A stretch of 64,000 nucleotides of DNA from the NCBI RefSeq assembly GCF_026914265.1, contig NC_069136.1:56585658-56649657 (forward strand). Reading direction: 5' to 3'. The DNA is from Mya arenaria (Eukaryota > Mollusca > Bivalvia > Myida > Myidae). This document shows, piece after piece, positions 27,859-64,000 of the stretch. Each line of letters begins with the position of its first letter. The first letter of the stretch is position 1. The notes beneath the pieces were generated by a model. That model did no database searches. It saw only the letters and a list, made by a program, of their open reading frames with translations, and had not been told where the DNA came from. The position numbers and the translations under genes are program-made.

Positions 27859-30800
27859 ATGTCAAAACCTGATGAAGATACAAAGACACCTAGAGAAAGT
27901 GGTCTTAAAGGTAGTCAGGTATGTGCTGAAAGCCTATTAGGTATTTTCTATGGAACTAAAAGATGACCAACTATAAAAGTTATGAAGAGTTACTAAAACA
28001 AAATCTTTTGAAGTTCGATTTCTTAAGATGTTCTAACACAAACAAATGCTCTCGGAATTTTGGAATATTCAGTGTTACGGTTTCGATTGAATTGAGACAA
28101 TAGTGAACTCACGTAATTAGTATATTAGACGCTATGTGTCTCAAAACACGACCAACCTATGTCATTCTCTTAAGCCAAAGACAAAGTCTTTAAAAGCAAT
28201 AGTTTGCAACAAATGACGTACAACATATCCACACTGCGCAGTTCGTTGATGCATGAAAATTCTACTGCCTATGATTAGATTATTAACGTGCATATATACG
28301 TTTCATGTAATACGATGTGTCGTGATAGATATATTGTTTTATTTTACAGGAACAATCTTTTGCTGATCTTCGAGAGACAGGCGCTTGTGGAAATGGGAAA
28401 GCGAATGTTCCAGATCTTCCCCACACATCTAACAAGGTCACTGGAAGTCGTCCATCAGTTGTAAGTGAAGATCCTTTATTGAGTGAAGAATAATAATATC
28501 TGTCATGTGTTTCCGGTTCGAGGGCACCTGCGTTGCCAGATAACGAGGCTCTCCAAGTAACCGGCTACGCAGCGTGCCCGAGTGTCGGATTTTTCTATCC
28601 GGACCGGACACACATGATTGATTGTTTTTCTAGCAGATCCTAAATTACTTGTTTGTGAAAACAAAGACAAAGAAAAACGATTTTTTTGTACGTTTCACCA
28701 AAAAGCGCGTGCGATGATGTTTACTGACGTCATGACGGGCAGTAATTTTATTCACTGCATCCGTCAAGAGGTTCCTCCAATATGACGTCTTTTAATGGTT
28801 ATTTTGATTTGTTTTGAAGCTATATTTTTGTAAAATTGATGCTTTTGGAAATCATCTATTGAAATATCATAATTATTGTTACATAAAGTGTATAATATAA
28901 GAAATAAAAGGTATTGAGATTTACCACCCAAGAGATACATAACGGTTTCGATTGAATTGAGACAATAGTGAACTCACGTAATTAGTATATTAGACGCTAT
29001 GTGTCTCAAAACACGACCAACCTATGTCATTCTCTTAAGCCAAAGACAAAGTCTTTAAAAGCAATAGGTTGCAACAAATGACGTACAACATATCCACACT
29101 GCGCAGTTCGTGAATGCATGAAAATTCTACTGCCTATGATTAGATTATTAACGTGCATATATACGTTTCATGTAATACGATGTGTCGTGAAAGATATATT
29201 GTTTTATTTTACAGGAATCATCTGACTTTCGAGAGACAGGCGCGTGTGGAAATGGGAAAGCGAATGTTCCAGATCTTCCCCACACTTCTAAAAAGGCCAC
29301 TGGAAGTCGTCCATTAATTGTAAGTGTAGATCCTTTATTGACATTCGGAGCTCCTCGGTTATCTTTATCGAAAACAACCTCGGATGTATTTGGACGGTTT
29401 ACATACTCAAAAAGGGGCACGTTTAAGTCCGCTGCAAGTAGATCGCGTAGTAATCTTATTTAGCAGTTAAACTTTATGACTTTACTCGTGGGAATCCTAA
29501 TGATTTTTGCTATAATTCACTTCACTGGCAATCAATATAAACTTAGATCAATAAATACAACTCTAAAACACTACATTTAAATAAAAATATAATTCAAAAT
29601 TTTACGAACTACTTCAACTGATATACCCGCATACATCCGAGGTTGTTTTCCATAAAAATGGCCGAGGAGTTCCGAATGCCTTTATTGAGTGAAGAATAAT
29701 AATATCTGTCATGAATTTCCTGTTCGAGGGCACCTGCGTTGCCAGGTAATGAGGCTTTCCAAGTAACCGGCTACGCAGCGTGCCCGAGTTTTTTTCCATC
29801 CGGACCGGACACATCTAACAAGGTCACTGGAAGTCGTCCATCAGTTGTAAGTGAAGATCCTTTATTGAGTGAAGAATAATAATATCTGTCATGTGTTTCC
29901 GGTTCGAGGGCACCTGCGTTGCCAGATAAAACAATGACAAAGAAAAACATTTTTTTGTAAATTTCACCAAAAAGCTCGTGCGATGATATTTACTGACGTC
30001 ATGACGCGCAGTGGTTTTATTCACTGCATGCATCAAGAAGTTCCTTCATTATTTCGTCTTTTAAGGGTTATTTTGATTTTATGAACTGTGCTGTTTGTGG
30101 TGTTTTGTGCTGTTCTTCCATGTTTTTGGTTGTATTTTTTTGTTTTTGTGTTCTATATTTTTGGCGTTTACACAGTGCCATTAAACCCGGTTTATATTTA
30201 AACTTTTTGCTACTGAGCTTGATTCTGTAGTTTTGAAATATCATAATTATGGTTACATAAAGTGTATAATAAAATAAATAAAAAGTATTGCGCCATAGCG
30301 CATGACTCATCTATGAGATATCAATAGATTATTTCCATAAACATTAATTTTACAAAAAAAATCTTTAAAACAAAACCAAATAATCCTTAAATAACGTTAT
30401 ACTGAAGGAACTTCTTGACTTATGCATTAAAAATACTGCGCTTCATGACGTCAGTTAACATCATCGCACGCGCTTTTTGGTGAAATGTACAATGTGCTTT
30501 TTCTATGTCTTTTTTCAGAAAAAATATAATTCAAGGTATACTTGAAAAAAACACACCCTTTTATGTGTGTCCATTCCGGATTGAAAACCCGACCCTCGGG
30601 CACGCTGTAGTGCCGGTTATGAGGCTTGCCGAGGCAACGCAGGTACCCTCGGGTCGAATTTTTCTATCCGGAACGAAAACATAATTATGATATTATTATA
30701 CCAGCACGGCTATATATATATATAAAGACAATAAACAGTGAAACATAGTTTGGTTAATCCAGAGAAAAGGCCAGATAAAATTTGACAATCATCTGAATCT

Positions 30801-33800
30801 GTTAGAGAGGTAAAAAAAATCAGGATTAGTGTTGACGTTTAGTCGTAGAAGACATATCGTTTTATCAATTGTTAAACTGTTAAATGATTTGTAATTAGAT
30901 GTATATCACTGAGATCGTTTTATTAATTCAATGGTACAAATAATTTCAAATAAAGGTCCAAGAATTTCCTATAATTTCCAACTACATGCGAATATCAGGT
31001 TTGATGAGTGTACTTGGTTTGTACGTTAAATTTCCTTCTATATAGGATACCACCCAAAAGCAATGTATGAGGCGAAGAGATGCGTCTGGTGATGAGAATG
31101 ACGGTGCATCCTTAATAGGAAAAACTTTCGGCGATGATGAGAAACGTAAGACTTTTTAGCTGAAATTGACAACCTTAGCAACTACTTTTATCCATAGCTA
31201 CAAATGACTTCTTTAGCAAACAATGACTTCGTTCGCAGCCAAAATCAACCTTAGCAACCAGATAAATCCAATGCATCCTCTTACATTCTTATTGACCAAT
31301 TACTTCGTCAACCTCTTACCTCCTAATTGACAAATAACTTTGTTTGCAACCAATGACTTCCAAAGCAACCAAGGACCTTCTTAGCTACTTATGACTTCCT
31401 TTGCGTTTCAATGACCAATGATTTTCTTATCAACTACCAACTTACTTGACCAATGACTTCATTAGCACGTCATTACTTCTTTATCTTCCTTCATCCGTAA
31501 CAATCAATAGCGAACTACTTTCTTAGCAACCAACAACGTTCAAAGCATCCAATGATGATCTAAGCAACTACCTTCATTAATAGCAACAGTGACTTCCTTG
31601 TCAAACAGTGACGTCCTTAGCCACCATTGACAGCCTTAGCAGCCATTAATATTCTTAGCAAACACGAGATTCCTGACCCAACATTGACTTCCTAAGCAAT
31701 CAATGACTACCTTACCAACTATTTCTCGCTTAACAATTATCTACATCCATGGCAATTAATGACTTTCTCGGCAACCATTGACGTTCATTGCAACAGTCAT
31801 TTTCTATTGCCATCATATTTTTGTCCCTTGGGACAACCAGCTGACAACCTCTTGATATTTGCTGGCACTAGGATTGAAATTCCTTAACAAGGACTTAACC
31901 CCTTATCAATCATCAAATTACTTGGCAACCACTTACTTCCATAGAGAGCAGCAACGCCCATAATAACCACTGACATGCAGTATAGGGACATCTTGGCCCT
32001 TTTGTTCAGATGTACTTACCATTTGTATTATGAACTACTAGTATGTAAAACTATTAATGACAAATATTTGTATTGCTAAAGAAAATATGAATTGTAAATG
32101 TTGTATAAACAGGTACATTTACCTAGTAAAGTCGTTTTAGTTAAGTCGTTATTATCATGATTCATTTAAAAATGATCTTCAGTCAAATGATTTATAGTTT
32201 TATATATATTTTATATCTATATTTATAAGATATTCGATATAAACATCACCAATTTTCTTATGGCAACATTTATATCAATAATTAGAAAATAATGGACAAG
32301 TCGAGCAACGCCTTCTTCCGAAAGATAACTGCAATACCATTCTTACCCTTGACATGGAATCCGAGAAAAACAAGGAAACAGACAGCGTGAAAACACCAGA
32401 AAAGAATGGATATGTATGCTATTTATTCAAAAATTCACTACGTTTAATATGAATTGATAACGTCCTTTCAAATAAATATATACCGGGCTCATTAAATAAA
32501 ATAACTTTAATCTTTTTTGTAGACCTCTTCGATGCAAAGTTTGAACTGGGTAATATATGTGGAGACCGATGCTATTGTAGCACCGGTGGCATTTGCATCC
32601 AACGACAGAGATTTGTCGGCACAGAATGGCGACAATGAACGCGAAGTCCGAACCAACGTGTTGCGCCAGACTGGTATATCAAGTGAAACACCAACTCCTC
32701 TAACGAATGTTTTGACTGTTGCAGTACAGACAAGCGATGCTCCAAATGATGACAGTTTAGGTTATATTTTGCTCAAAGAAAAATAGGGGTATTGTCATTG
32801 CCTAAGTTTCGTAGTAGTAGCAGACGTCTTGAATGTTTTACTTGAACCCGGACGTCACAAACGATATATTTACAATAATTTTAAGATTGTTAAAAGTAAC
32901 ATAACACGTGTGCTGCAAGGTCCGTACGTCTGGGTTTAGTAAGTGTCGAGTTATGACCATTGACTCAAAACAGCTACAACAGTCGAACGTTGGTTCTTTA
33001 TTTTCTTTTATAAACTTTGCTAGTAATCGATTATTTTATTATGCCCACATGCAAAGAAGTTGGTGTATATTGCTTTGCGTATGTCGGTCCGTCGTTCGGT
33101 CAGGCGGTAAACAAAACCGTTGGTCATGACCTGCAAATGACCCATTTTGATTTGAAGTCAGCAGGTCAAAGGACAGGGTCGCGGCTCCCTTGAGCATAAA
33201 AAGCTTGTCTGGTTGATAACAACAGCGTGCTTGAGTCTAAGATTCTTAAATTTGGTAGGAGGTTGAACAAGACCTGCAGAAGCCCCCATTGATTATGAGG
33301 TCAGCAGGTCAAATGTAATGGTCACAGTCATCTAATACACATAAAGCTTGTCCGATAAATATAAAGACAGGGCCAGAAGTTGCCAAAATTGAAATTGAGG
33401 TAATAAGGGCAAAAGGCACGGCCATGGTGATCTTGTTTATACAGACTATTAGGGTAAGGGTAAGGGTTAGCCCAAAAGTCAATTTCTAACGTGGAGGGCA
33501 ATGTTGTACAATATGGATATCATTGCAATAATTCGTGTCTAATACATTACATTTTAACCTTTTTTTCTACATAATTATAACGTATATGTGAGAGCTCTTA
33601 TAATCTTATTGTAGATGGGATTTCATATTTCAGATAAATTAATGGCGATTTGGTCGTGTACTGTAATCGCGTTTATTTTCCAATGAAAACGTCCGTCATA
33701 ACCGATTATCGGGGACGTTAGTTCGAACCATTGGGATGCGAACACACGAGTTCTTCTAATATTAAAGCAATCTCAACAGCATGCCTGGACGAGTAATAAA

Positions 33801-36800
33801 CGGAGAGCTGTTTTCTCTTGCCAACACTACCACATTGGCAGGTTATGACAATTCTGACCAGATGGGAAACTTTAACAGTCATAATGTTAATTCCCAATAT
33901 AGTAGCTAACAAGGAAGGCGAAGCTTTGGACGAGTGTATGGCTGGCGACGGTTGAACTGTCATCAGAAGTAATCAGTTGCTTACTCCTGTCATTTTGTCC
34001 TTACCAACATAATCAATTCACATAAACTATTTACAAATTGAACTGCATGATTATACAAGCGATCAAGCGAGTCATACTTGACGGATTTACATATGGATTT
34101 CCTTTGTATTACAGTCCCATGCAGACATCATTTGCAACTAACATTAGGTCTACATACTCAGTTAGTGGCATAACAAAACATCGAAGGAATTAGCTGCAAG
34201 TCGTGTAGCACGCCCGTTTGTTTCAAGTCCAATTGCAAATCATTGCTTGTCACCTATTAGTCTGGTTCCTTAGAATATCAAATGAGAATTTAAGATGGAA
34301 CACCATCTATCTGATCATGTTGGTAATTTTGTAAACGATTTTATTGACCTAGCCCTTTGCACATTACAATACACACATTTTGACAATGATACAAGGTCTG
34401 GGACAAAGGGTAATGCTTTTAAAAGAGGATATTAAGAGTGCATTTAGACTATTGCCGGTTCACCCAAATGCACTTGATTGGCCCGAGTTCCATTTCGGGG
34501 TTTAATTTTATTTTGATAAATGTCTGCTTTTTGGTTGTAGCATTTTTTTACAGTACCTTTGAACAAATTGCCACTTTTAAGGAAGTTTTCTGTGCGTAGA
34601 AAAGCATCGAGTGACAATCTATTACTTTGACGATTTTTGGGGTGGGGGCAGGCGCGTAACTAACGAATGTCAACATCTGATGTTTGTATTTGTCTAATGC
34701 ATGACCGATTTTGTGGTACCATCGGCAGACGAGAAAACAGAGGGTCCAGTAACTATTCTTTGTTTGCTGTGTGAAGAGCTTGATTGCGAGGAACTAGATG
34801 TATATATGTCTCTAAAGAAAAATATGGCGGAAAATTGAAGGCGCCATGCTCCTGACTTGTGTTGCCATTCATATGATGGTCTTAACGATGGAACGATGGA
34901 ATAACCTAGAAATATCAAACATCTAGTTATTTATTAAAGGATTTTATTTCCCTTGAACATTTAGTTCAACCTGGGTTGGGAGGATAAATGATGCAGGTTT
35001 TGCGGAATGTATTCATAAATTATGTTGGTTTCAATTACAACAAATGGAATGTAATAAGGGGCCAGGGTTGAGCCCGAACAGTTTAAAACTAGGTTTCTCC
35101 CGTGTATCCCCTTATGTTTGGCTATTAAGAATTGGAAGCTTGCGAAAATTGCATCGGGTATGGATAAAGGATATAATTCCGCAAAACATAATCATAAACA
35201 CAGCATTAGGATTTTCTTGGGAAACACCTGTCGGTTGAATGCCGCTTGGAGCCCTTTCCGCATATTCTCTGACTACACCATAACCTAGGATAGTAACATT
35301 GGGATCAAATTTCTCCACATTTTATTCTCTATGTATTTTTTTTTTGTCCGACTAAGTTTATATGAGCCATGTAAATGCAATAGGTTCGTAAAATTGTGCC
35401 ATGCCAGTATTATATACATTTCAGTATTTTAATGCAAAACATGAATACATATATATATATGTCCAGTCATTTTGTGGGTTTTTTTATGTCAAAAAATGAT
35501 AGAGCATTATAGATATCATAGCGCATTTAACATATTTCAAAACTTATGTCACATTATCCCGGTCAGTTGTAAGAGTTCGTCAGATATTATTTATTTCGTT
35601 TATTTTATTAAACAGAAATCATCAAATCATTATATGGCAATAGCTGTCAAGTGGTTATTGCATTTGTGCTATCATCTCAAAGAGCAATGTCACGGAGCCC
35701 GATAGGAGATTAAAGTTTTCCCTCAATTATTTATATGAAGGTGTATCGCAAAAAAATGCATGCTCGTGTCGAAAAGTCCTTGTCCCCTGATACATATTCT
35801 CATGAATTTCATTATTTTTTGTTTAAGGTCGCAACGAAGTGGGATTTGTTGGTCTTCCTTCTGTAAGAAATGCAGGTACGTGAACTATTTTACCCTTTTG
35901 TTTACTCACAGTTGTTATTATTATGCCCCCAAACATAGTAATCGGACTGTTATCCGGCTGTTAGTCCGTCCGCCCGTGTAAACTGTTTCCGATCGATAAC
36001 TGAAGGCAGATTGGGCCAATTAACCTCCAACTAAGTAGCCAGGTAGTTTATGATCAGCAGATAACCCGTATCGATTTTATGGTCAGTAGGTCAAAGGTCA
36101 GGGTTACGATGACAGTGAAGACATTTACCTGAACTTTTTACTGATCATTTGTTATATCTACTGTCATTCTAGGACATAGGTAAATAACCTGGTCGTCCCA
36201 TTTAATACATTGGTACCGTTTATGCCGATAACCGATACAGACTGTGGTGTTATGTTTATTGAATAAACAATAAACATAACACCACAGGCTGTATCGGTTA
36301 TCAGTTATATATATAAAATATCCACAAATACTGACTGCAACATTAATACACATAGAAGCTTTGAATTTATACAGTAAGAGGGGTTTTAAATGGGCTTTGG
36401 TGTCCATACAAAGGAACCTGATGTACTGATGAGAATTGTGACTATATATGTGGAATAAAGTGAACCAAACTTGAATCATGACTTGGGTAACAATGAGTAA
36501 ATTAAGGATATTTCCATAAGTTTTAATGTTTTGTCATTAAAAAAATAATAAAAAAATAATATTACAACAACACATATGTGCTACATGTTGAATGAAGCTT
36601 TGAATGTTTGTTTTGTTCAATCAAAAGATCAATCGTAAAATAATGAAATACATCGACAGAGCTTGAGAACTATTTAACATCCGGTTGCAATTTTGCGGAA
36701 TTCCACGAATAAGAAGGAAACGTTAACTGTCTGTCTGTTTTTGAATTGAAAAGGGAAACAAATTACGAACATGGCTGACTATCGTTATTTTCATCTGAAG

Positions 36801-39800: not shown

Positions 39801-42800
39801 TAACTTTGTTTTGTTTCATTGGTTATTGCTACCTAAGTATCGTGTTTATTTGATGGATATTTTTATTAACTTTTGTATATATTATAACATCAGTAAATAT
39901 TATACACATACTACTGTTGGACAAGTTACATATCAGTACTATACATGTATATATACGTATAACAAAAATATACAGATTATGTTAACAGTATTTAAAGCTG
40001 TTGAGGAGAGTGTTAAAGAAAGATTAAAGGTAGGAAAGAAGGGGGAAGATAGAGAAAGATCGTGGATTAAATATATAACCATATATAGAACAGAAGCAGT
40101 AATTGAAAGTAATTGTAAATATTATTTCTAATTTAGAAGCCTCTTTTCATCTATCAAGTTATATAACAGATTTACGCAATATGAGTGTTATAACAAAACA
40201 TCAGTTTTTTATGACCGCTTTTAAAATATGCGTATAACAGAACAGAACATAACAAATATTTCATTAAGATTTGAACCAGGTAAATCGTCTTCGTTACCAC
40301 AACGAAATCATGGGTAATTCAACATATAAAATATGAAATAATAGAATATTAATATAAGTTATATGATCAATTAAGCTGAGGATGAAGAGGAACAACATTA
40401 AACTTCAACATTCAATTCAATGGATAATCCTTGAGTAATGTTAACAACACAATGATGTTCACCAATTCTCTGTATTCATGTCATAGGTATCTAACGTCAA
40501 CAATACTCACATAATTCCTAGTTGAACGTTCTGAAAAGACAAATATCAACAATCATAAGCATATGAATAATCTACTTCATTAAATTAAGTTAAACTGTCT
40601 TAACATCGCAAACATTCTATACAGTATACAGTATTATATGATATAATTTAATCGTGTGCAGTGGCAGATTAAATAAAATGGCTAAAACATACATATATGA
40701 CAAATGATCACAAAAACAATGCACTTCACACAAAACATCCCATCAACAATGATCTTACCATTGTAAGGAATTGAACGCTCTTAAACCCGAATGTCTCTCT
40801 CTCACGGTGTCTGTATTATTTATATGTTGATAATCAGCTGTAAACCGAGCCCACATGTGTTAGTTGTGGAAATAGACTAAAAAGAGCACATCAGAACTGT
40901 CATTTCTATTTCAATACAAAATGTACACCTGTCACGAAAAATAATTTAACGAAACTAAATAAATACAGCTGAATGAACTTATTGATCATTTAAAAACATT
41001 GCAAAACCATTACAAATACAAAAGACAACAAATGCAAACGAATACTGACCCTTGTGTATGAATTGTCACTTAAAACTCATAAAACAAGTAAAACATATGT
41101 AACTCGATGATTCATTTTTTGCACACAATGAAAACCAGTGATCACATGACTATTTCCCCGCAAAATCATTGGTCTGTAACAATCATAATCAAAGAGAGAT
41201 TTTGTCTGTTAACCCGAGTAACTCTTCTAGCAAGAGTTATCTTTCTTAATAAAACTGCACCTTGCTATCATTGTTTTCTTGTTTTGAATTTACATAAGAC
41301 TGATTTCACGTACATACCATTAGAATTTTACAAGTTTATTAGCAAAACCATAATTCCTTTTTTTTATATTTTTTGTTTACATTTGCTACGTAGTTTTTCA
41401 TTCCATTAAACAGTCGGATAATGCATAGAAACATGTACTTCGTATACACCTGTATGCTTCTGATAACTATCAAGAATTTAAAAACAACAACTATTATTGT
41501 GTAATTCTAACAAATATATGGGAAAACTGTTGATATCTACCAAGCTCCCTCTCAGCACTAGTTGTTCGTGAATGCTTTTCTTACATTTAACAGACGTTTT
41601 AAAAAAATCAAATCAATTCTTTCATTTTCTTTCGCCTTGGTATTACCCCCAACTTTCGGAAGCATTGTTAAGAACATGAGCGACATAAAAAAGCTGACAT
41701 AATAACATTGGTTTCAGATCCAAATCCGTACATGTATACGATAAAGTTTTCGGCATTTTTAACGCTTTATCAAGTAAATGTTTTTGGTTTAACGCAAAAT
41801 TACAAGTATAGTTCTAAACAGCTCTTAAGTAAATAAAATCATTCACAACATTATTTGGCTGGCTATTATAGGTACAAATGTCCGTGGCCAATATCTCTCC
41901 CTTATGCGAATTAGCATACTTTTAGTTTTAGTGCGTTTTCTGATAAATTTAAGTAATGCACTTTTCGGACAGTCTATCGAGATGTTGCAGAACTTCGACA
42001 GGTGGTTTTCATAAAATGACCAAGTCGTCAACAAATAATAACTCTTTAACAACAATATCATCGATTGCCAAGCCCGAGTTTAAGCCATTTTGTCAATATA
42101 CCTCTTTATATTCAACAAAGAGTGAACAGATCAATGTGAAATTGACGAAGGCCGACAAAACAATCGAAGTAATCATAAAATATAGAACACGAATTTACAA
42201 AAGAATTAATTCTTTGGTACATATCCCTTATTATTCGTATCTTTCCCGTCGAATTACGGGTGTGCACAATATCACCCGTAATGCATTTATATAGATTTAA
42301 TAAAGACATTTCATCATATCGACAGTTCAACATAAGGTCGTTTATAATCATTTAAGTATTTCTGTAATTAACGGCAAGGGAAAACATCGCATCTTTGGTA
42401 GAGAAGCCCTTTCCGAAATCGGAAATGAGCGTTCGAAATAACGTTTTTTTTCCTCACAAAAAAACCTGTTACATACGTACGAATGTTGATTGTGTTCTTA
42501 ACATCAACAAATGTGTATTATGTGACATATTTCTGTGAATACACGTTTTCTTCATCAACTGATTAACAATGTATTGGTATTGATGCTTATACAAATATTA
42601 AAGTAGGTATTGCCTTTTCAGATTTTCACCTTAATTATGATAACAGCATTAAACGTTCGTTTTTAGTATATTATTATATTATATAACATTATTGATTTTC
42701 ATATAAGTCGTTTACAATGGGAGATGCACTGAAGAAGACATCGAAGTTGATGACTTGGAGAGCCCTATAAATGTTTTTGAAGGTACTTTAAATGGGATAT

Positions 42801-43198
42801 ATTTTTTGTAATTATTCATCATACATTATGGGCTTTTAAAATATTACAATTACAGACCAAAACTTACCAGTACTATTGTTTACAAGATAATTGTATAAAA
42901 GCATTGTACATATTTTGAAGAAGGTATTACCAAAAACTTTTGATGATACTATGACTACTTTCAAGGATAATTATAAATTGTAGTGAATTGATTTGATTAT
43001 TTGTTTGAAATATATAACGTATTTCCTTGGATTCCAGGTCGCATCTCGTGTCTAGCATGCCAAAGGTCAGCGAGGAACACCGTGATACGACCATGTGGTC
43101 ATCGGCTATTCTGTATGAACTGTGCTCAAAGGATAAGAACATGCTGGCAATGCGGAGTAGCGATCTTACAAATGATTAGAATTAACACCAACCAATAA
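27859..43198 (+). CDS. Gene A: low-complexity protein with C-terminal IAP-type RING finger
   Basis: Nine exons joined by splice sites and phase: 27859-27918, 28350-28460, 29215-29319, 31046-31145, 32286-32413, 32523-32760, 35828-35875, 42708-42782, 43038-43198. The total of 1026 nt is exactly divisible by three, 341 residues. Residues 1-20 begin MSKPDEDTKTPRESG. Exons 2 and 3 are duplicates sharing RETGACGNGKANVPDLPHTS. The middle is rich in E, D, K, S and T and looks disordered. The last exon encodes C-x2-C-x11-C-G-H-x3-C-x2-C-x6-C-x2-C (CLAC ... PCGH ... CMNC ... CWQC) and a short MIRI tail, the layout of the RING of IAP proteins, which are ubiquitin E3 ligases. The proline usual before the last cysteine pair is replaced by Trp. 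No BIR domain is seen. Donor gttata after 32760 is the weakest junction. A conserved acceptor at 27828 suggests a non-coding exon upstream. Function unknown; ubiquitin ligation is inferred from the RING alone. Confidence 0.72.
28077..29330 (+). repeat. Tandem duplication of about 865 bp carrying gene A exon 2
   Basis: The segment from 28077 (acggtttcgattgaattgag) recurs at 28942 with few differences. It carries the intron 3' part, the acceptor ttttattttacag, the coding exon and the gtaagt donor. Exon copy 1 is 111 nt (28350-28460) and copy 2 is 105 nt (29215-29319); both keep phase 0, so both can be included. The near identity marks it as recent. A third fragment at 29811-29846 keeps only the exon's 3' third and donor. 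Confidence 0.85.
28504..28616. repeat. Short TIR element, first of several local copies
   Basis: The ends catgtgtttccggttcg and, read inward from the other side, catgtgtgtccggtccgg form an imperfect inverted repeat around about 80 bp. Related copies lie at about 29,703-29,812 and 29,885-29,935 and, inverted, at 30,562-30,682. With each full copy goes a roughly 300-bp companion segment containing caccaaaaagcgcgtgcg and tgacgtcatgac. They sit in introns of gene A. Confidence 0.6.
29342..29678. mobile_element. 337-bp MITE with about 50-bp TIRs and 10-bp target duplication
   Basis: The ends CATTCGGAGCTCCTCGG and, read inward on the right, CATTCGGAACTCCTCGG continue as inverted repeats through gaaaacaacctcggatgtat, about 50 bp with a handful of mismatches. 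The flanks are identical, CCTTTATTGA (29332-29341 and 29679-29688). A 9-10 bp duplication suits Mutator-like elements. It interrupts the copy-2 intron just after exon 3 of gene A, so it is younger than that duplication. Confidence 0.85.
30090..30234 (+). repeat. Dispersed repeat, copy 1 of 3 in the window
   Basis: Shares gtgctgttcttccatgttt, ttctat(a/g)t(t/c)tttgg and ggtttat(a/g)tttaaa with 48441-48580 and, inverted, with 58002-58152. It resembles a bivalve dispersed repeat but I cannot name the class. Confidence 0.7.
30310..30690 (-). repeat. Inverted copy of the 28.5-28.9 kb element
   Basis: Read on the minus strand this contains tttcaccaaaaagcgcgtgc and ctgacgtcatgaag, and it ends in the tccggaa... 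termini, matching 28,504-28,930. With 29,885-30,080 it makes a long inverted repeat within the intron between exons 3 and 4 of gene A. Confidence 0.65.
31160..31800. repeat. Degenerate 19-bp tandem array in a gene A intron
   Basis: About 640 bp of diverged units near acttccttagcaaccaatg. In the best-preserved part (31,590-31,800) eleven successive units align at exactly 19 bp, each carrying a ctta.c/ctt.gcaa core. No reading frame is kept. This is an old minisatellite. Confidence 0.75.
33030..33480. repeat. 'tattatgccc' mollusc-type repeat, copy 1
   Basis: The motifs ttattatgcccaca, gtatattgctttgcgtatgt, cggtccgtcg and two gaggtcagcaggtcaaa-like phrases belong to a repeat I associate with bivalves. 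A second copy lies at about 35,918-36,150. Confidence 0.55.
34070..34840 (+). mobile_element. DIRS-like retroelement fossil (RT remnant), broken
   Basis: Plus-strand remnants show the RT signature of tyrosine-recombinase retroelements: RVARPF (about 34,200), NFVNDFIDLALCT (about 34,330), KEDIKSAFRLLPVHPNALDW (about 34,425-34,480), FYFDKCLLFGCSI (about 34,510), YYFDDF (about 34,625) and ADEKTEGP (about 34,735). No recombinase domain or terminal repeats were recognised. Broken in several places and old. It lies in the intron between exons 6 and 7 of gene A. Confidence 0.7.
34850..35820. other. Gene A intron, nothing recognised
   Basis: No exon or clear repeat. Short open frames near 35,040-35,320 on both strands are not convincing. 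Confidence 0.4.
35918..36150. repeat. 'tattatgccc' mollusc-type repeat, copy 2
   Basis: Begins ttattatgcccccaaac, then ttagtccgtccgcccgtg, and contains ggtcagtaggtcaaaggtca, parallel to the 33.0-33.5 kb copy. Confidence 0.55.
36227..36302. repeat. Near-perfect 35-bp palindrome with 6-nt loop
   Basis: The left arm 36227-36261 (gataaccgatacagactgtg ... tttattg) and right arm 36268-36302 are inverse complements with a single mismatch, separated by aataaa. Confidence 0.9.
37749..39560 (-). mobile_element. Decayed LINE, 3' half, antisense to gene A
   Basis: The minus strand holds non-LTR reverse-transcriptase remnants in order: GWLQRFLYKIGE (about 39,110), a VALSP block (about 39,010), IQLADDHAI (about 38,900, the catalytic DD), KKSGLKLNKTKTNGLWSG (about 38,800), a YVKSLGVCFGN-like piece (about 38,710), and further down IIWSNKFIK (about 38,110). 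The order and the SGLKLN..KT and L..W.NKFI motifs fit an L1-like lineage. The frame changes several times and stops occur, so it is dead. 37749-37930 matches 11464-11625, suggesting the element's 3' end. Confidence 0.65.
39600..41800. other. Gene A intron, nothing recognised
   Basis: AT-rich intronic sequence between the two LINE fragments. Open frames here (for example 39763-40131) show no family features. Confidence 0.4.
41840..42350 (-). mobile_element. Decayed LINE reverse-transcriptase fragment, antisense
   Basis: Minus-strand frames give FDCFVGLRQ (about 42,140) followed by AIDDIVVKELLFVDDLVIL (about 42,060-42,000, the YADD-like catalytic box), then LDRLSEKCIT and a KTKSMLI segment. 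This is the palm region of a non-LTR RT of another lineage than the 38-39 kb copy (no SGLKLN block). Frame changes separate the pieces. Confidence 0.65.
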
Positions 43199-47390: not shown

Positions 47391-47392
47391 TA

Positions 47393-50640: not shown

Positions 50641-52205
50641 TTTAAAAAGGATTCCTAAGGAAAAGATATCAATTGCCTGCATTAGATGATATTGTACCAG
50701 AACTGAACAGTGCAAAATCTTTACTTAACTTGATGACAAAGAAATTGGCACGAACGGGTGATGTCTTTTCTTATTGTCTCGACGTGAGCGGAGTCAAACG
50801 ATTCTGTTGAATGGTACAATTCCTGCCATTTTTGTCAGAAATGCTTAAACCATTGTAAACAGGACCCGTGAGAATATTTCTTGAAATTGGACAGATGAGT
50901 GCACGGACGGATTTAAAAAGGTAAAAAAAATCCTGACACAAACTGAAGTCTAGTCTTACGATGCCCTTAGAAAGAGCACTTCTAGTTGACAGTAGCAAGG
51001 ATTGACAAGGTGTTGTTCTATAACAAGATATATATTAGACCGCTTGAATATGAGCACAAACTGAAAAGAAGCGTTATTTGATCTCTACGGTCTTTCACGC
51101 TTTGCGTATGGGCGTATAGTGACAGTGGTAAATGATATTTGACCTCTTCCTAACATTCTTAAGAAAGTCTGTAAGTCAGGCTCAAAACATGTTCAAGACA
51201 TACTAAGGGAACTATTTAGGTATAACATGAATTTCCATATGCGAATGTAACTGTGAAAGGATTTTGTTATAGAAGGCTCTCTTAGTCATGCATACACATC
51301 ATCTGATGTGACCAGAACAAGAGAAAATTAAATCAATATGCATAAGAAGATATCTATAAAGAAATAAGAGATGAAACCGCAAATGATAAGACCTTTGAGA
51401 TATCGATTGACTGTATAATCGATGGATGGCCAAATGAATGGGGAATGACATGAACTGTGATATAAGGCCATATCTTTAGATTAAAGACACTTTGAGTCAT
51501 TATGATGGAATTATATTAGAGGGTGAAACAGTATCGCTACCCAATCTTTGACACAGTAAATGAGGAATCATTTACATAGACGTTGATTGGATAGCAACGA
51601 CAAGTTCACATGTGATTGAGAAATCAAAGAAGCAATTCTCAAGATTCGGTGTTCCGAATAGAATTGTTTGTGATGGCGGATCCCGCTTAACATCAAAATA
51701 CTACAAGGAGTTTATGAAAACTTGGAAAATACATTGTCACTTGAAATCATCTCAGTACTCTCAATCCAATGGAACAATGCAGCTGGTGTTTGTTCAAAAT
51801 CATGGCAACATGATGTTTAAGTGTGCAAAATCTAAGACCGATGAATATGAAACACTTCTGAACAAATTAATACTTCAATACACAGGTTAGACCCCAGCTT
51901 AGATTATGTTTAGTAGATAGGCAAGAGATAATATCAACAGTATCAGTGGACTTAAAATTAAATGGCACATCTCGTATCTCGTTTGTGAAACAAAGCTCCG
52001 AAAGGAGTTAAAAACCAGACCCAATATATCGTGAAAACCAAGGAGTGTACCAACTACAGAATAATCGAGATCATCTTAAACAGGCCACTAAACCTCTGCA
52101 AATAAGCGACTTATAATTGTCAAAATTATATGTATTACCTTAAGATTTGCATAGTCATTATTCTGTACAAATATCTAAAACCTATATCTCAAAATTGTTT
52201 CAAAA

Positions 52206-52277
52206 GGCTCCAGTGGGGATCGAACCCACGACCTCCTGTTTACTAGACAGGCGCTCTAGCCACTGAGCTATGGAGCC
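52206..52277 (-). tRNA. tRNA-Thr(AGT)
   Basis: 72 nt on the minus strand fold as a complete cloverleaf: acceptor GGCTCCA/TGGAGCC, D arm GCTC/GAGC, anticodon stem CCTGT/ACAGG with loop CTAGTAA (anticodon AGT), and T arm GTGGG-TTCGATC-CCCAC. No intron. A T4 run follows immediately on the minus strand (52202-52205) as Pol III terminator. It decodes ACU after A34-to-I editing, as usual for eukaryotes. Only the first copy of the surrounding duplication contains it. Confidence 0.96.
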
Positions 52278-52391: not shown

Positions 52392-52500
52392 GTCAGGATG
52401 GCCGAATGGTCTAAGGCGCCAGACTCAAGGTGTGTCTCACCTTCATAACGAGTATTCTGGTCAATGTATGTTGGCGTGGGTTCGAATCCCACTTCTGACA
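52392..52500 (+). tRNA. tRNA-Leu(CAA) with intron, copy 1
   Basis: 109 nt. Acceptor GTCAGGA/TTCTGAC plus discriminator A, anticodon stem CCAGA/TCTGG, loop CTCAAG|T with anticodon CAA, and T arm GTGGG-TTCGAAT-CCCAC. A 25-nt intron at 52430-52454 sits after position 37, the standard site. Intron CACCTT can pair with AAGGTG across the anticodon end. The variable-arm stem is CAAT/GTTG. The mature length is 84 nt. A T6 terminator lies at 52506-52511. Confidence 0.96.
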
Positions 52501-53136: not shown

Positions 53137-53245
53137 GTCAGGATGGCCGAGTGGTCTAAGGCGCCAGACTCAAGGTTTGTCCCACCTTCATAACGAGTGT
53201 TCTGGTCCACGTATGTGGGCGTGGGTTCGAATCCCACTTCTGACA
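53137..53245 (+). tRNA. tRNA-Leu(CAA) with intron, copy 2
   Basis: Same structure and length as copy 1. The 25-nt intron (53175-53199) differs at a few positions, and the variable arm reads CCAC/GTGG instead of CAAT/GTTG. The D-arm region is GGCCGAGTGG, against GGCCGAATGG in copy 1. A T5 terminator lies at 53251-53255. The upstream acatataagtt is shared with copy 1, showing a common duplication. Confidence 0.96.
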
Positions 53246-53259
53246 CCCCCTTTTTGTCA

Positions 53260-55330: not shown

Positions 55331-55339
55331 AGATAACCT

Positions 55340-56150
55340 TGAGTGCGCGTTTATGTAAGTTTGACTATGAAAAGGCTTTTGACACTGTTATGCATTATCC
55401 GTTGTGAAGAAATAGTAATATTGTATAATTAGTAGGATGATAGTAACGTAAAGTCTTTTTATGCCAATTTAAAGCGATATGAATGATATGTTTTACACTG
55501 AGCATTTTGATTTCCCCTTAAACTGAAACTATGGAAACCATTTGCTCTTTTTTTGTTTGTTCGTAAACCATATTAAGAATGAGCATATGACCCATAATGA
55601 TTTAAACAAAATGTTTGTACATGTTTACTGTTTTAACATGACATAGCACTGTTTTACTTCTTATCCTAGTAGTCCTTTATTTAGCACAAAGAAACTCAAG
55701 CAAGACTGGTCTAAATTCTTTTCACCAAAATAAAAAAAAACACGTCTATTTCAAAAATCTTTACTTGGGCAATAAATGATTAACCTGTGGAAATTGCACA
55801 TACCTTTTTTTTTGTATAGAAATTAGATAACAATGGGGTTTTATAAATGCTGTTACGGCTTTGAAGTAGCAAGCATTGAAATCATACACTCATCTTGTAT
55901 AAATTTGCAATAGAGTTTAACACGATGCAAAGACAAAGTTGTTATTGTTTGAATGTATTGCGGCCCCTATTATTATGTATGGCTGTGAGAATTGGGCAAT
56001 AAATGCTATTAAATAGGTAAATACATTTCTCCTCGAAGATTGCGAACATATTCTTGGCGTTCGTTCTCAAATAATCCAATACAGCAGATCAGGATGAGCT
56101 AGGATATTTTCCATTATCGATGCTAAGTAAAACAAGCAGTAATTTAATCT
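55340..56150 (+). mobile_element. Decayed LINE fragment (RT and C-terminal region)
   Basis: The plus strand reads FDYEKAFDTVMHYPL (about 55,360-55,404, RT palm), then an EHFDFPLKLK-like piece (about 55,500), APIIMYGCENWAINAI (about 55,965-56,010), LLEDCEHILGVRSQIIQ (about 56,035) and DELGYFPLSMLSK (about 56,090-56,130). The FDYEKAFDTV, YGCE.W and ELG.FPLS blocks occur in this order in CR1/Jockey-type mollusc LINEs. Stops and frame changes break it and the 5' part is absent. Confidence 0.65.
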
Positions 56151-56159
56151 GATGTTAAA

Positions 56160-57370
56160 TAAATAAATAAATGCAAACCAGCTTATTATTATAACTATAA
56201 CGTGCAAATTAATAATGGGGTATACTTATTTGCAGGGCAAGGGATAATTGTTCTTAATCTGTGAAGAATGTGCAATAATTTCTTAGTTTTAGCTCTATGG
56301 GATGGTGAACACTTTGTACAAATGTTTTTGCATCATTTAAACTACAGCATTAGGCCCAATATGTACAGCATCGATTCGCAGTCTAATCTAAATTATCACA
56401 AACATTTTTAGGGGTATCTTACATGGCAAGTCAACACGTGTAAATATCAATGATACATTTAGAATTGCATTATCTTGATTACGATTATTTTTGCACTCTC
56501 TTGTAATATAAATTGCAAGGTATTGCTTTATTGCACGTTTAGATCATAAATAAACATATTTTATACTAATGCCGAATATCACTTTATGTTAGTTTGTCCG
56601 TTCTACTCGTATTTACGTAAAAAATATTTCCAACTCAATGAAGATTTTGACTACATTTATGCTTACGTGTTCAACAAATAATTTTAAATAATTAATTCAA
56701 AATATTTTTTCAATTTATTTCAAAAGTTTTATGTCCTTTTTTAGAATTTTACTATCAAATATGTTTTGAAAAACTAAAATTTGGGTCGGTGATTGGGAAA
56801 GATTGATGATAAATGAAGTAGATTTTGGGGCATGCAATTTTCAACTTCATGTAACTGCCTTATCACCTGCTTTTCAATTATCATGCTCATAAACTGCACC
56901 TTTTTATTGAGAGGAGTATTAAGCAAATAGTTATTTCGCTTTTTTGACACTATTTCCAAATCATTCTAGTTTTATAAAGTGGCTGTTCTTGAAAACAACG
57001 CTTAAATTGCCTGAAGATAGCTTCTATTTAGTGAACAGTTTTCTTGTTTCACATTTTCAAATCAAGTTTTAATTTTACTTCGTCATTTTTGACAAGAATT
57101 GTAGACTTCCGTGTAACTGTATCTACCCCGTGCCCAGAAACTGTGCTTCAATTGATTAGACACCAGGTATTCGAAACATGGGCAAAATAGAATTTTCTCA
57201 AATCAAGGCTAGTTAACTCAATACGAGCTAGTATGAGGCCGATAATACATGATTGAAATAATATTTTAAAGCTGTTTCAGCTGAGTTTACCCGTTTAAAA
57301 ATAGCTCATACTGGTTTCCCAGTTTATAGTGTATCTAATTAGCATGTGAAGATCCCGTGATTAGCACCAA
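56160..57370. other. AT-rich stretch, nothing recognised
   Basis: No gene or repeat that I can support. Confidence 0.4.
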
Positions 57371-57371
57371 C

Positions 57372-57590
57372 ACATATACCGACGCCCTATTTTAAATTTA
57401 CTGTGATTTACGCGGTATACAAACCCAATACATTTCGCATTGGAAAAATATGCTAAAACTGCGAAATATGCATGTATCGTTAGCGCTGTGATACATCATT
57501 AATTAAGCTTTAATGCGTTGAACAAAACGACATTAATTTATGTAAATTTTCTTATTCTTGCAATGGTTCATCTGGTTGATAGTCCTTTTC
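57372..57590 (+). repeat. Duplicated segment, copy 2 (with 50415-50640)
   Basis: See the copy at 50415-50640. The two are colinear with small indels and moderate divergence. Confidence 0.7.
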
Positions 57591-58001
57591 AGTAGTCTAG
57601 TTATCTAATAGATTCATAGCAACTGTCAGTTATAGAACTTGTAGTAAATGTAGCCAAGATGGGCAGGGGTGACAAGTCGCCGGTACAGAGGATTGTTAAT
57701 CATGCTTTGAAAGAGAAACACCAAATTCTTTCTTAAAGGAATCTTTATCGAGGACATCAAAAATGCCCATTTTGTAAATCAAGAAAGTCCATTGTATACA
57801 TTCCTGACATGTTAACATTCTACAACTGTCTATGTACACTTTCATGTACACACTGGGTGACCCAATGTCGGTGGGCGTAAAACTTTGTCAACGTCTTAAG
57901 GAATGAAATAAACAGTATATGATTCTTCATGATAAAGATATATGATTTAATGTCAATACAAGTTATTAACAATTACATGCACAGCATACATATCTTTATG
58001 C

Positions 58002-58152
58002 GAAAAACTACAGAAACAAACTCAGTAGCAATTTTTTTAAACATAAACCCGGATTTATGGTACTGTGTAAACGCCAAAGACATAGAACATAAAAAAAAAA
58101 AATCACAAACAAGAAACATGGAAGAACAGCACAAAACTCCACAAACAGCACA
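58002..58152 (-). repeat. Dispersed repeat, copy 3 of 3 (inverted)
   Basis: Reverse complement of the 30.1 and 48.4 kb copies (gaagaacagcacaaaactcc, then aacataaacccgg). Confidence 0.7.
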
Positions 58153-59159
58153 TTGCATACATGCGCTATATAAAAAACTAGGTATGTTTATCAAGGATTG
58201 TTAGGTACCGCCTTGGAACGGTCAGTAAAATGTAAATTTTCTGGGGGTTTAAACTAGTTTAAGTGCACAGACCTCACTCTTATCCCAGCAATCCTAAATA
58301 AAGAAAAAACGCAAAAGGTAAATCTTATCAAAGTATGCATTTACTTGAGGAAACTTAACAATACAACACATAATAGTAAATTTATAGGTAAACCCCAAGT
58401 ACTTCTATGATTAGAGATCCCAACTCTATCTGCAGACTGAGGAATACAATTCAAAGCACCTAATGCAAAAACTTTTCAAAGATACGATGCAGTCATTGTT
58501 TGGAACTATGAGCATTACACACAGTCTGCCTTATAAATTAAAAGGTTTAAAACTGTGTGATCATAGAGTTTCATAATAAAAGCATCATTCAAATAAGTAT
58601 AGGGTCATCCGCCATTAAACGTATTCTGGGACTCCATTACCGTGACGAGACATTACTTGACCAATCAGAAAAGTGTATTTAAAAACATTAGAAAATACCT
58701 ATATTTAACCCAACCTCTACTCATACGATGCACAAATTAACTTTGTTTAGAAAACTCTTCAAAATATGTAATAATAAACTCATGTATTCTAAACACCATA
58801 TACAGAATATTAGTTTGACAGATTTCAAAAAGAAGAAGATACACCATACCCAAAAACATTGGTTGACCTAGATTGACAACTGACGATAAGGAAACGAATG
58901 CACCGAATATGACCCAGAAACACCTACGCATGAGTACACAGTTGGCATTGTTTTGACATTCACGGTAATTCAATACCAATTGTAATAGGGACAAAGACCT
59001 AAATGTTCAGCCGACAGACACGTTTGATTATGCGATAGCTTTTAAATTTGATTTTAACGACTGTATATCAATATGCCAATCGGGAATCTGTGCTATTTTG
59101 TTTATGAAAATCAGTTATATCAATCCAAAAAAAATAATAAAAAAATGATTGTTTTATTT

Positions 59160-59340
59160 TTATAAGTAGACCATGTCAACATATAGATAGATACTAACAC
59201 TAAACTCATGACGAGGGAATTCACCGAATAAATACAATATTGAACGATCTAAGAAGGTAACACTGTCCAGTATGTAATGCGGAACCAGAAACGCAGTTTG
59301 TTATACGGGTGTTTTAACCGATCATTTGTGTATAAGTATA
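59160..59340 (+). mobile_element. Possible LINE C-terminal remnant
   Basis: A plus-strand frame gives HCPVCNAEPETQFVIRVF (about 59,260-59,315), like the cysteine motif near the C-terminus of CR1-type LINE proteins (C..C....ED..HF). It may be the far end of the LINE at 55.3-56.2 kb, split by later sequence. Weak. Confidence 0.35.
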
Positions 59341-59639
59341 CTGTAAATTGCGATTTGACACTGTAGCAGCATTTTATATTTATCAAATGCCTAAATATGA
59401 TATAATGTGAGGGTTAATTGAAGTGTTTTTCAGAACAGCGAGAAAATGAATGCAAAAGTAACGTTTTATTTGGGTTTGGGTTTAAACAGTATTTATTTAA
59501 ATAAACGATACAAGATAAGAATACAAACAGTATACATAATCCGATTAATACAAGCTAATGTACATGGAGGATGCATAAGGTGGGTCCAAAGGTATTGTTT
59601 TATAATAAAAACAAATATATTTCTTCACATTTGTGTGCT

Positions 59640-61500
59640 AGTGTAGTAAAGAAATGTACTGGATATTGTTTGTGTATTGCATGCTGGTCCTCCTGACACG
59701 AGTTGTACACATATTTTATAAAACACGTAGGTATTGTACGCAGCCTTCACTGATAGTGCTTCTATTTCCTGGCCATATGGTGTAGCTCTAATGTTATGTA
59801 GCCTTGTATAGAGATTTGCGCAGTGTTTGCGAAATGACTAGGTTGAGCATGACTTGCAAAAAAAACCATCAAAATGCAAAGCACTACGACCGTACTTCAA
59901 AAAGATCTGTGTGATTTTTGCTGAACGAGGATAAGGCAATCATAAAAAACAATGGCTGATTTAAATCCACTGTTCAAAAAATTATTTATGAAGTAAACAG
60001 AAGATAACTGAGTCATATGACTCATACTTTGTCTACTGAGATACTATACTTGTCGTTTTTGGTGATTGTAAATGGCATACATAAATCAGATCGTCGCCCA
60101 CACCTGCGTTTAACAATGCAATTGTGACCGAAGATAAAATGCCTGCTTAAGCAAAACTCAGTCACTGAAACGTTATATATCTCTATTGCTATTTAAGTAA
60201 CGAATGACATGTCTAGTGTTGAAATATTTCGAAATGTGAATCATTCCTTAAGTATAGGGCATGACAGTGCACAAATGTTAACAAGCGTTCACTCCCGAAT
60301 AAAATCACAGAACGAATAATGAAAGCGCAAAACAATAAAAGGCAGACAAATCAATATTAATAAACATAACTAACAAGAATGCTCTCCCTTGATAATTATG
60401 AGATTTTCTCAAAATACTTAATTCGTACAAGCAACTGTATTGCGAAATAAGCAATAAATACTAAAAAATGGCGAATATTTTATTTGACCTTTATATACCA
60501 GCCTTACTGCAGAGAATCGATCAGCATTAGATATGATGACACTTAACTTTATGGTAGTTGTTTATCAGGTAGAAGTATGCTTACTAGAGCATGCTCGCTT
60601 TTGATTTTTTTATATCATTAGACGCATCGGTCAAATCATAACTCAGTTAACCTTCTGCTGCGCCTGTCTGCTACAAATATATCATACATCTGCACATACT
60701 TTTGTTTGCAAATAAGGTAGGCTATGGTGATCCTTAGTTTATTACCTAGAATAAAAGGTTCGAATACCGACACATTTTCTTCATGCTTTTTTCAGGTTCT
60801 CAAAAAACTTTCTGTTGGGCTTTCGGCAAAATTGGCCGTTATCTACCTATATCCGATCATGTTATGACCTTCAAGTGGTTTCCCATTTATGTTTATGCAA
60901 CGTTGTTCTACAAAGATAACAAAACCTGTACATTTTGTTCTTTAGCAATTCAAAGGTGTTTACCAGGTGGATCTCGGACACTTGGGTTTGTTTTGATGTA
61001 CTTTCTTCATTTTGTTGAGATTTTAAAAATAGCATTACACATGAACTATAAAATAACCTCTCCGTCAGTAAGAGAAAGATAATGAACTAAAGAAACCCTT
61101 CTGTGTATATTTATGGTTGCGAAATGAATTTTGTAAACGCAGGTTTTATACTTTGATATATTTAAATGATCGCATGAAAAACACATAAGACATATTTGCT
61201 ACTACTTTTTGTTTGACACTCGATCAAGGGGAATAACTTAAAAATATGTATGGACAAAAGAAAATGGTATAAATGTACAAAGTTTCACTTTGCGCACAAT
61301 TTCTGTGTGAATTGACGACACTAGGAATCTAATTAATTAATTATGTTCTGCTTATACGCAAAATGTTTGCACCACATGATGTAAGTGGGCTACGTGTAGC
61401 ATCTAGGTTTGTACTGCCAAAATTTGGGATTATTTTTATATAGTGTCAGCGTAATTTCCTGTCCACCTGCAGCGGGACATACAAACACAGCTATCCCTGT
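59640..61500. other. AT-rich stretch, upstream of gene B, nothing recognised
   Basis: Includes an open frame at 60783-61082 with no family features. The gene B promoter or non-coding first exon may lie here. Confidence 0.4.
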
Positions 61501-61569
61501 TTTACTTTCAGATAAGTCTGAGTAGCAAGCTGTTCATATCATGGACCAAACTGAGGATACACGGAAAAA

Positions 61570-61722
61570 ATGGGATTTACCAAGACATCTATTGAACGTA
61601 ATAAGGTATGTGTTCAAAGCCTTCAAGCAAACTAAGCATGGATTTGGAAATCCTTTTAAATAGCTTCATATGCAGAGGTCATCCAGTGCTCTAAATTACT
61701 TATCTAACAATGAATAACACAC

Positions 61723-61782
<60 letters not shown>

Positions 61783-63776
61783 AGATTTTGAGGTATGAAC
61801 ATTTATATTGTGAGTGCATGTCCGAGGTGGTAATGCTATTCATGAAAGGCTGTTTGCTTTGATTATTTGATACGTAGAAATGATCACTCATCTTAGAAAT
61901 AATCCAAAGGCTGATGCAATTACTGATACCATAAGCTTTGAACCTCTTTTTCGGTTGAGAAAGATCGGACACAAAAATCTGATGGGAAGGATTTTAATTA
62001 TAATTAAAATAAACTAAGTCGTAGTTCTACCAAGCAATGCTTAAGGTCAAACGACATATGACGGACAGTTGACGATGGTCAAAATAACGTACAATGTACA
62101 TTTCGGCCAATTTTAATCAGTCAATTTATCATGCTTACATTTCAATATTACAACCTTAGGATTTAGAGGAGGATAATACACCGTTTTAAGTATAAATCGA
62201 GGCTGCAGGTCCAAGAGCAAAGCCAATCATTGCTGTTTTATGGAGCCAATGGATACTAAGGATATATAACATATTAAGAGAAACTTGATTTATTTTATAG
62301 GACGAAGTAATTGTGGATAATGAAGGGACAAGGAAAAATGGTGGTGACGAAACGCCGGTAGCATCTGTTCCTTACATAGCGAAGGGCGGCTGTAAAATAA
62401 CTCCTTCATTGACACCTGTAGATAAACGTGCTAAATTGGACGAAAAGGAAATACACCGATTGATTGGTGCAACAGAACAACCTTTGGACTGCATTTTGGA
62501 GGTAACAAAACAGAATATCTTTAGAGTGGCTTTATTCAAACTAATAGTTAAGCTCGAAATAAATCATAGTAACAGTATAATATACAAGAAAAAAATGTAG
62601 GTGAAGGTCGATTTTATAATCTTCAGACGTAAGTTATTTTGGTGTCGAAACAAACAAAGCATTAATTTGAAATATCAGTAACAATTCAACATGTCGGCTT
62701 TCCCTTGGCACTGCATCACTCTAACAATTCAACATGTCGGCTTTCCCTTGGCACTGCATCACTCTAACAATTCAACATGTCGGCTTTCCCTTGGCACTGC
62801 ATCACTCTAACAATTCAACATGTCGGCTTTCCCTTGGCACTGCATCACTCTAACAATTCAACATGTCGGCTTTCCCTTGGCACTGCATCACTCTTTTGGT
62901 AGTAAGGTCCAAAGCCTGTGCCGCCAAAGGCTTGTGTTATTTGCTTAATGATATTGGTTTTAATAAACAGTATGTTGATTTGTATTAATGCTGTAGAAGT
63001 TCGAACACAAACAAATGATCATTAGGTCATGACTCGATTTTGAGCAAATTTTGTCAAAGTTCCTCAAGACAATTTGGCATGCAGACATTTCCAACATACG
63101 GCTTAGGAATTTAGAATAAGTTTAAACTGAATCTGCGTGTCACAGCGCTATAAAACAAAAGGCTTTTAATAAGTCACTCACAATGTACATTTCGGCCACA
63201 GCTTTTTAGCTGCACGAGATATAAGACATGTCCCCTTATGGTTAGATTGTTAAGGTATGTGTGGATGTTTTACAAATTTAGAGAATTATAGAACATGTAT
63301 TTTGCAGGAGAGCTCAAATGTAGATTATGGAGAGACAACTAAAAGGGGAAATGAAAAAGCGCGGGTAGCAACGGCTCCCTACATAGAAAAGGGCGGTCGT
63401 GTAGGAACTCATTCACTGACAATATTAGATGCAGAAACTAAATTGGACGAAGGTGAAATACATCAATGGATTGAAGCAACGGAACAGCTATCGGAGTGCA
63501 AATTCAAGGTAATAAAATAACAATTTTAACGCGTTGGTTTTTAATTATATCTTCGAAAAATACCTTATTCAAACTATTACTTAAGTTCAAGGCTTTTGGA
63601 CCGAGATCCATGCATGTTATGAATTCAGTAGACAACGATGCTCACACATTGTGGTAAAATGTACAAAAACTCCCCAACACCTTAAATTGAAGATGAACAT
63701 GCTATATGGAGAAGAGACACACACATTAAAACATACAGAGACATGTGAGTTTGTTACAAACCAAAACCATAATATT

Positions 63777-63816
<40 letters not shown>

Positions 63817-63970
63817 TTTTGAAATTGTATGTACCATGCGAATACTAGGTTTGATGATTGCCTTGGAATTGTACGTTACATTTCTTTATTTATAGGGGAC
63901 TATCGAAGTGAAATCGACAATCGATGGAGATGCGTCTGGTGATGAAAATCTCGGAGAATCCTTTATTTGA
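61570..63970 (+). CDS. Gene B: tandem relative of gene A, with duplicated 201-nt exons (partial)
   Basis: Exons: 61512-61605 (5' UTR plus 12 codons from ATG 61570), 62301-62501, 63308-63508, 63896-63995. Exons 2 and 3 are each exactly 201 nt, phase 0, and related: VASVPYIAKGG and VATAPYIEKGG, KLDEKEIH and KLDEGEIH, ATEQ in both. Exon 3 also resembles gene A exon 3 (ESS...ET..GN.KA.V...P). Exon 4 is 100 nt like gene A exon 4 and shares GDASGDEN and flanking intron sequence (catgcgaata...aggtttgatga), so the genes are paralogues. In exon 4 a TGA at 63968-63970 stands where gene A has GGA; as read, the product stops at 170 residues, before any RING. The upstream ATG at 61541 is out of frame with exon 2, hence the choice of 61570. 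It may be a truncated paralogue, a pseudogene, or a gene with alternative splicing of exon 4. The rest lies outside the window. Confidence 0.6.
61734..61777. repeat. (GA)n microsatellite
   Basis: About 22 GA dinucleotides in the first intron of gene B, ending in a short G run. Confidence 0.95.
62679..62893. repeat. Five perfect copies of a 43-bp repeat
   Basis: The unit taacaattcaacatgtcggc ... ctgcatcactc is repeated five times without any difference I can see (starts 62679, 62722, 62765, 62808, 62851), in the intron between the two 201-nt exons of gene B. The identity means very recent expansion or an assembly feature. Confidence 0.95.
63779..63814. repeat. (GT)n microsatellite
   Basis: Eighteen GT units in the intron before exon 4 of gene B. 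Confidence 0.95.
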
Positions 63971-64000
63971 AAAACTTCCTGCGAGCGTGAGCAAGGTGAG

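Follow-up and report, generated by a model that had tools for sequence, protein, structure and literature searches.

RESULTS

Gene A joins nine exons and ends in a RING exon

The window, i.e. the whole stretch of DNA analysed here (64,000 nt, C15:56585658-56649657, from an assembly of 1,216,080,610 bases in 18 contigs), carries two related genes on the plus strand. Gene A lies within it; gene B begins at about 61541 and extends beyond the window to a RING at C15:56655481-56655642. Nine plus-strand exons of gene A join into 1026 nt encoding 341 amino acids plus a stop, with phases agreeing, just as an earlier note on this DNA had placed them:

27859..27918, plus strand: exon 1, start codon, phase out 0; the start region aligns with gene B
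28350..28460, plus strand: exon 2, repeat exon, phase 0-0, AG/GT flanks; matches gene B exon B3
29215..29319, plus strand: exon 3, duplicate of exon 2, phase 0-0
29809..29929, plus strand: fragment of a third repeat-exon copy plus downstream intron, 100% alike to 28423-28543
31046..31145, plus strand: exon 4, 100 nt, phase 0-1; aligned with its gene B counterpart
32286..32413, plus strand: exon 5, phase 1-0; gene B match E 8.5e-10; the acceptor may be 15 nt later
32523..32760, plus strand: exon 6, phase 0-1, weak donor; gene B protein match 5.9e-20
35828..35875, plus strand: exon 7, 48 nt, phase 1-1; aligns to a gene B intron region
42708..42782, plus strand: exon 8, acidic linker, 75 nt, phase 1-1; C13 match 9e-6
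43038..43198, plus strand: exon 9, RING and stop; PF13920 match

Six of the eight donors and six of the eight acceptors pass a stricter splice-site rule. The alternative start of exon 5, 15 nt downstream, is in frame and falls at an AG common to gene B (judged by eye). Exons 2 and 3 stem from a recent duplication, being 95% identical over 406 columns, intron included, and the third-copy fragment is 100% identical across 121 nt. An inverted repeat (28558-28871 / 30312-30619, 79% over 320 columns) lies around the duplicated exons and may be a transposon that had a part in their duplication.

The agreement of phases, together with a total of 3n, had been considered hard to get by chance, a view that our resampling contradicts. 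Twenty Markov-resampled sequences had longest nine-exon frames of 1596-2085 nt when any GT/AG was accepted and of 795-1392 nt (median 1128 nt) with the stricter sites, compared with 1026 nt for gene A. Resampling thus produces such chains easily, and the exons could be taken for a chance chain with no gene behind it; given the collinear relatives in gene B and the exons common to C13, we find this scarcely credible. It is these relatives, and not the phase agreement, that establish the model: gene A is a real gene, probably intact, and a member of a small family consisting of A, B and two loci on C13.

Searched against Pfam, the gene A model gave a single match above cut-off, the RING match to PF13920 (3.1e-9, 36.9 bits, cut-off 27). 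In good agreement with the claim that the N-terminal part matches nothing, no Pfam match was found for it, and a search of the PDB with the repeat profile gave no convincing match, with nothing below E 0.13. The description of the protein as low-complexity does not hold, the commonest residues being Ser and Thr at 8.2% each. A structure predicted for the repeat from four window sequences was poor (pLDDT 54.8, pTM 0.23, helix at 48-66) and was discarded.

The window also contains a 45-bp tandem array (12590-13663; 23.9 copies, 96% matches) that is open on both strands, and a minus-strand open frame (23045-23536) that by eye resembles a retroelement integrase, although Pfam gave no match for it at E 0.1. 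The interval separating genes A and B holds a tRNA-Thr gene (52205-52277) and, in a local duplication, two tRNA matches of 109 nt found with Rfam only (52392-52500 and 53137-53245). Pfam was also run on seven further open frames in the window, and no match passed a curated cut-off.

Gene B is collinear with gene A and probably decayed

The part of gene B that falls in the window comprises the following features:

61541..61605, plus strand: exon 1 region; the first ATG (61541) is out of frame with exon B2, an in-frame ATG lies at 61570 (frame judged by eye)
62301..62501, plus strand: repeat exon B2, 67 amino acids, phase 0-0
63308..63508, plus strand: repeat exon B3, 67 amino acids, phase 0-0
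63896..63995, plus strand: 100-nt exon with an in-frame TGA at 63968-63970

Aligning the ATG of gene B to the start of gene A gives a 65-nt exon. The start regions, including the acceptor before the start exon that the earlier note had described as common to both genes, align with a local score of 45 (best of 200 shuffles, 36), and the 100-nt exon with flanking intron, likewise described as shared, is borne out at 76% identity over 152 columns. The two genes further match in exon 5 (79% over 132 columns), exon 6 (85% over 197 columns, the most conserved stretch between them) and the RING plus intron (72% over 316 columns). All these matches are collinear, together with those of exons 7 and 8. 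Exon 8 scores 52 versus 37 in shuffles, and exon 7 with 40-nt flanks scores 88 against the gene B intron region (best of 100 shuffles, 38). Although exon 7 could be skipped without a change of frame, it is supported because its alignment between A and B holds both splice sites.

Gene B carries several lesions, their positions counted by eye: the TGA in the 100-nt exon, a TAA in the RING (C15:56655587-56655589), the loss of the exon 6 donor and a missing AG at the exon 5 acceptor. Because of the TGA and the TAA we regard gene B as probably a decayed copy, in which some lesions may be assembly errors. Of the two same-strand genes proposed earlier, the common exon plan stands and the intactness of gene B does not. 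A 43-bp unit is repeated in five perfect copies (62679-62894) inside a gene B intron.

Two loci on C13 extend the family

With the RING of gene A as query, matches were found at C13:40691917 (53%) and C13:39407392 (51%). Around the RING these two loci agree in 99.27% of 2200 columns, so one of them arose by recent duplication, and a C13 RING query scores 122 bits at its own locus and 120 at the twin. Both carry the RING exon and the linker exon, and the 67-aa repeat of gene B finds four matches at each; at the second locus, the match coordinates put them farther away from the RING, by about 56 kb. Examined in full, one C13 locus has repeat exons flanked by AG and GT, a phase 0-1 exon of 88 nt, a linker exon of 75 nt, as in gene A exon 8, and the RING exon. 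The 88-nt exon has the RDAS motif of gene A exon 4, to which its match is weak (E 0.099). Counterparts of gene A exons 5-7 gave no match in the C13 stretches, and a join of exon 4 to exon 8, as in a C13 plan without exons 5-7, is compatible in phase.

By its sequence the family follows a common plan. It opens with a short start exon and continues with repeat exons of phase 0-0, an exon that runs from phase 0 to 1 and an acidic linker exon of phase 1-1; the RING exon, entered in phase 1, comes last. The tandem arrangement claimed for it applies to the A/B pair, and with two further loci on C13 the family is not only tandem. We also considered C15:462692, which matches the family RING at 46% over 48. 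Other family exons were looked for there and none was found; because only the RING is common, the locus was set aside as a family member.

The repeat exons of gene A are probably shortened, diverged copies

The repeats B2, B3 and those of C13 form one profile. Compared with B3, neither exon 2 nor exon 3 of gene A (A2 and A3) has its score reached in any of 500 shuffles; compared with B2, the scores are reached in 66 and 193 of 500 shuffles, respectively, and compared with one C13 repeat, 19 and 2 of 500 shuffles are as good. When the profile was built without the gene A exons, it did not find A2 and A3 (E 11 and 58), nor did a query with the N-terminal part of gene A find the B/C repeats; the good scores of the gene A exons in the first profile arose because they were in its seed. 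The repeat exons reported as common to A and B are therefore upheld in the comparison with B3 and fail in those with B2 and with the independent profile, and the A-B repeat-exon link runs through B3 alone. Since A2 and A3 match B3 and, less well, one C13 repeat but not the rest of the profile, they are probably shortened and diverged copies, in agreement with their position and phase.

The RING keeps its zinc ligands and departs at the E2-contact positions

The RING of gene A has exactly the IAP spacing noticed earlier (C-x2-C-x11-C-x-H-x3-C-x2-C-x6-C-x2-C) and keeps all eight zinc ligands. In a comparison of 17 RING rows, with six near-duplicate loci left out, the zinc spacing is identical throughout; the exception to intactness is the TAA in the RING of gene B. 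In the PDB the RING of gene A has as neighbours BIRC3 (1.4e-5), MEX3C (1.6e-5) and, below 0.001, MYLIP and CGRRF1; XIAP (6.2e-6) is a further neighbour of the RINGs. Structure prediction, which had been suggested as a check of the RING fold, returned a poor single-sequence model that is all helix and not RING-like (pLDDT 63.9, pTM 0.35); we discarded it.

We take the residue before Cys2, the residue after Cys7 and the linchpin after Cys8 to be E2 contacts. The usual residues of IAP RINGs at these positions are Ile/Val, Pro and Arg, i.e. hydrophobic, Pro and basic. All three are absent from gene A, which has Ala, Trp and Gly, and the C13 copies have V or A, R and D. Among ten other RING rows from the same genome I, P and R occupy the contact positions in four, the other rows departing too, and the linchpin of XIAP is Tyr. 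According to the available part of PMC12326332, non-Arg linchpins lower ligase activity, the Tyr of XIAP being one such case, and some RING pairs contain one inactive scaffold or partner.

Gene A might encode an ordinary active RING E3 ligase, with disordered N-terminal repeats binding a substrate that the RING dimer ubiquitinates. The intact zinc ligands and IAP spacing are consistent with this, as are RING substitutions that lean synonymous (see below), but the change to Ala, Trp and Gly where RINGs usually contact the E2 and the lack of any known substrate-binding domain in gene A by Pfam make it a possible, if somewhat unlikely, reading.

Selection on gene A is suggested by the RING

In the RING, pN is below pS both between A and B (0.221 versus 0.447, bootstrap 0.99) and between A and C13 (0.266 versus 0.457, bootstrap 0.948), and the same holds for the conserved part of exon 6 between A and B (0.094 versus 0.195, bootstrap 0.90). 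Exon 5 gave no purifying signal between A and B (pN 0.238, pS 0.197, bootstrap 0.312), and A-B identity is 76% in the RING exon versus 77% in the preceding intron. Because the RING signal is not repeated in exon 5 and the exon is no more alike than the intron, selection on gene A is suggested rather than proven.

These values bear on the idea of a decaying gene cluster, in which B is already broken and A is on the same path, perhaps transcribed without selection. The four lesions of gene B, the two weak donors and two weak acceptors of gene A and the similar exon and intron identity around the RING would all fit such decay. The nine-exon frame of gene A is nonetheless uninterrupted, and the differences between the A and C13 RINGs fall, in proportion, mainly at silent sites, so that we hold decay of the whole cluster to be unlikely.

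No BIR was found at the RING loci scanned

The earlier note had remarked on the absence of a BIR domain from gene A. In keeping with this, the Pfam search of the model gave no BIR. Nor did a scan for the BIR core motif around A, B and the C13 stretches, which took in 133,400 nt of C15 and, at three other RING loci, a further 69,600 nt and which an intron-split BIR would escape. Of 559 BIR candidates 150 were scored; the nearest of these on C15 is 1.15 Mb away from the window, and on C13 one sits on the opposite strand at 82 kb from a copy of the RING. Gene A could still be a normal IAP with BIR exons that escaped notice elsewhere in the transcript, and the hard clam gives this some footing, since the first BIR of most of its IAPs is split over two exons (PMC7831173, available in part). 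With no motif in the stretches scanned and the nearest scored C15 BIR so far off, we judge it highly improbable.

Kinship with IAPs is visible in the RING exon. Its acceptor could be found by rule in 6 of 13 loci, and entry is in phase 1 in all six: gene A, a C13 copy, C15:462692 and three IAP-like loci. The available text of PMC7831173 likewise places the RING of hard clam IAPs in a single terminal exon. IAP-like exons start 16-17 residues before the first Cys, versus 3-6 in family exons. In a tree of 17 RING rows, the family (rows A, B, C and D) groups with C15:462692 at 88/96, and this group joins one IAP-like row at only 56/58; the tree is weak and gives no supported link to any IAP group. 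Judged by BIR content, the family members are not IAPs, and they may derive from one. The earlier note had called the family undescribed. In the parts available of the open-access molluscan IAP literature (PMC7831173, PMC8917759), whose subject is BIR-containing proteins, we have not met a BIR-less RING family.

RING and BIR hits crowd together in this genome in an IAP-like manner, which fits a bivalve. The genome also holds many near-identical 149-aa BIR frames spread over chromosomes, several as inverted pairs about 12.5 kb apart and others about 13.9 kb (e.g. C15:8184567 and 8197125, C12:8957398 and 8969986, C5:6347146 and 6359685). From the coordinates only, it looks as if a large mobile element bears a BIR gene near each end. 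On several chromosomes BIR and RING lie in one 298-aa open frame (e.g. C16:48552375-48553109, C3:36542148-36542882), as expected of retroposed or mobile IAP copies.

DISCUSSION

We tentatively favour, at a little short of an even chance, the view that gene A belongs to a BIR-less offshoot of the clam's large set of IAP-type RINGs and acts as a weak ligase or as a RING-pairing partner, gene B being a decayed copy. The family would have split from the clam's expanded IAP-type RING genes and retained the RING exon at its end, now preceded by repeats that are unrelated and probably unstructured. With less weight, the RING of gene A would be a weak ligase, or a pairing partner tuning other RING ligases, and the N-terminal repeats would select the partner or substrate. 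The gene and its RING are read from the sequence, while weak activity, pairing and partner choice are what we infer. We propose weak activity or pairing because Ala, Trp and Gly replace the usual E2-contact and linchpin residues, and because of the linchpin data in the available part of PMC12326332; since other RING rows depart at the contacts too and XIAP has Tyr at its linchpin, weak activity is a guess.

A bolder and decidedly doubtful extension is that bivalves possess a family of BIR-less IAP-type RING proteins, with phase 0-0 repeats varying in number among copies, made to pair with and tune the expanded IAP RINGs, i.e. dedicated modulators that grew alongside the IAP expansion. Counts of that expansion in bivalves require a BIR, one molluscan IAP study having pruned proteins without it (PMC8917759, available in part). 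If BIR-less RING relatives are expressed, such counts miss part of a system that may regulate it. The locus also offers a case of how a terminal RING exon can be put to use again downstream of new repeat exons, with phases that let the number of these exons change.

Among known systems, MEX3C, MYLIP and CGRRF1, which are of the same Pfam type, resemble gene A in the RING; they differ in that their other Pfam domains are absent from the gene A model, in which no substrate domain was recognised. The pairs MDM2/MDM4 and RNF2/Bmi1, each with one weak member (PMC12326332, available in part), offer a parallel in that zinc ligands are kept and E2-contact residues lost; we claim no sequence kinship with them, and pairing of gene A is only conjectured. 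The closest comparison is with the IAPs themselves (BIRC2/3, XIAP and the expanded bivalve IAPs). The family shares with them the RING spacing, the single terminal RING exon and, where the acceptor was found, phase-1 entry into it, with BIRC3 and XIAP as PDB neighbours. It differs from them in that no BIR was found and that the coil of about 16 residues preceding the first Cys is absent, and in its lineage-specific repeat exons, its other E2-contact residues and its other C-terminal tail.
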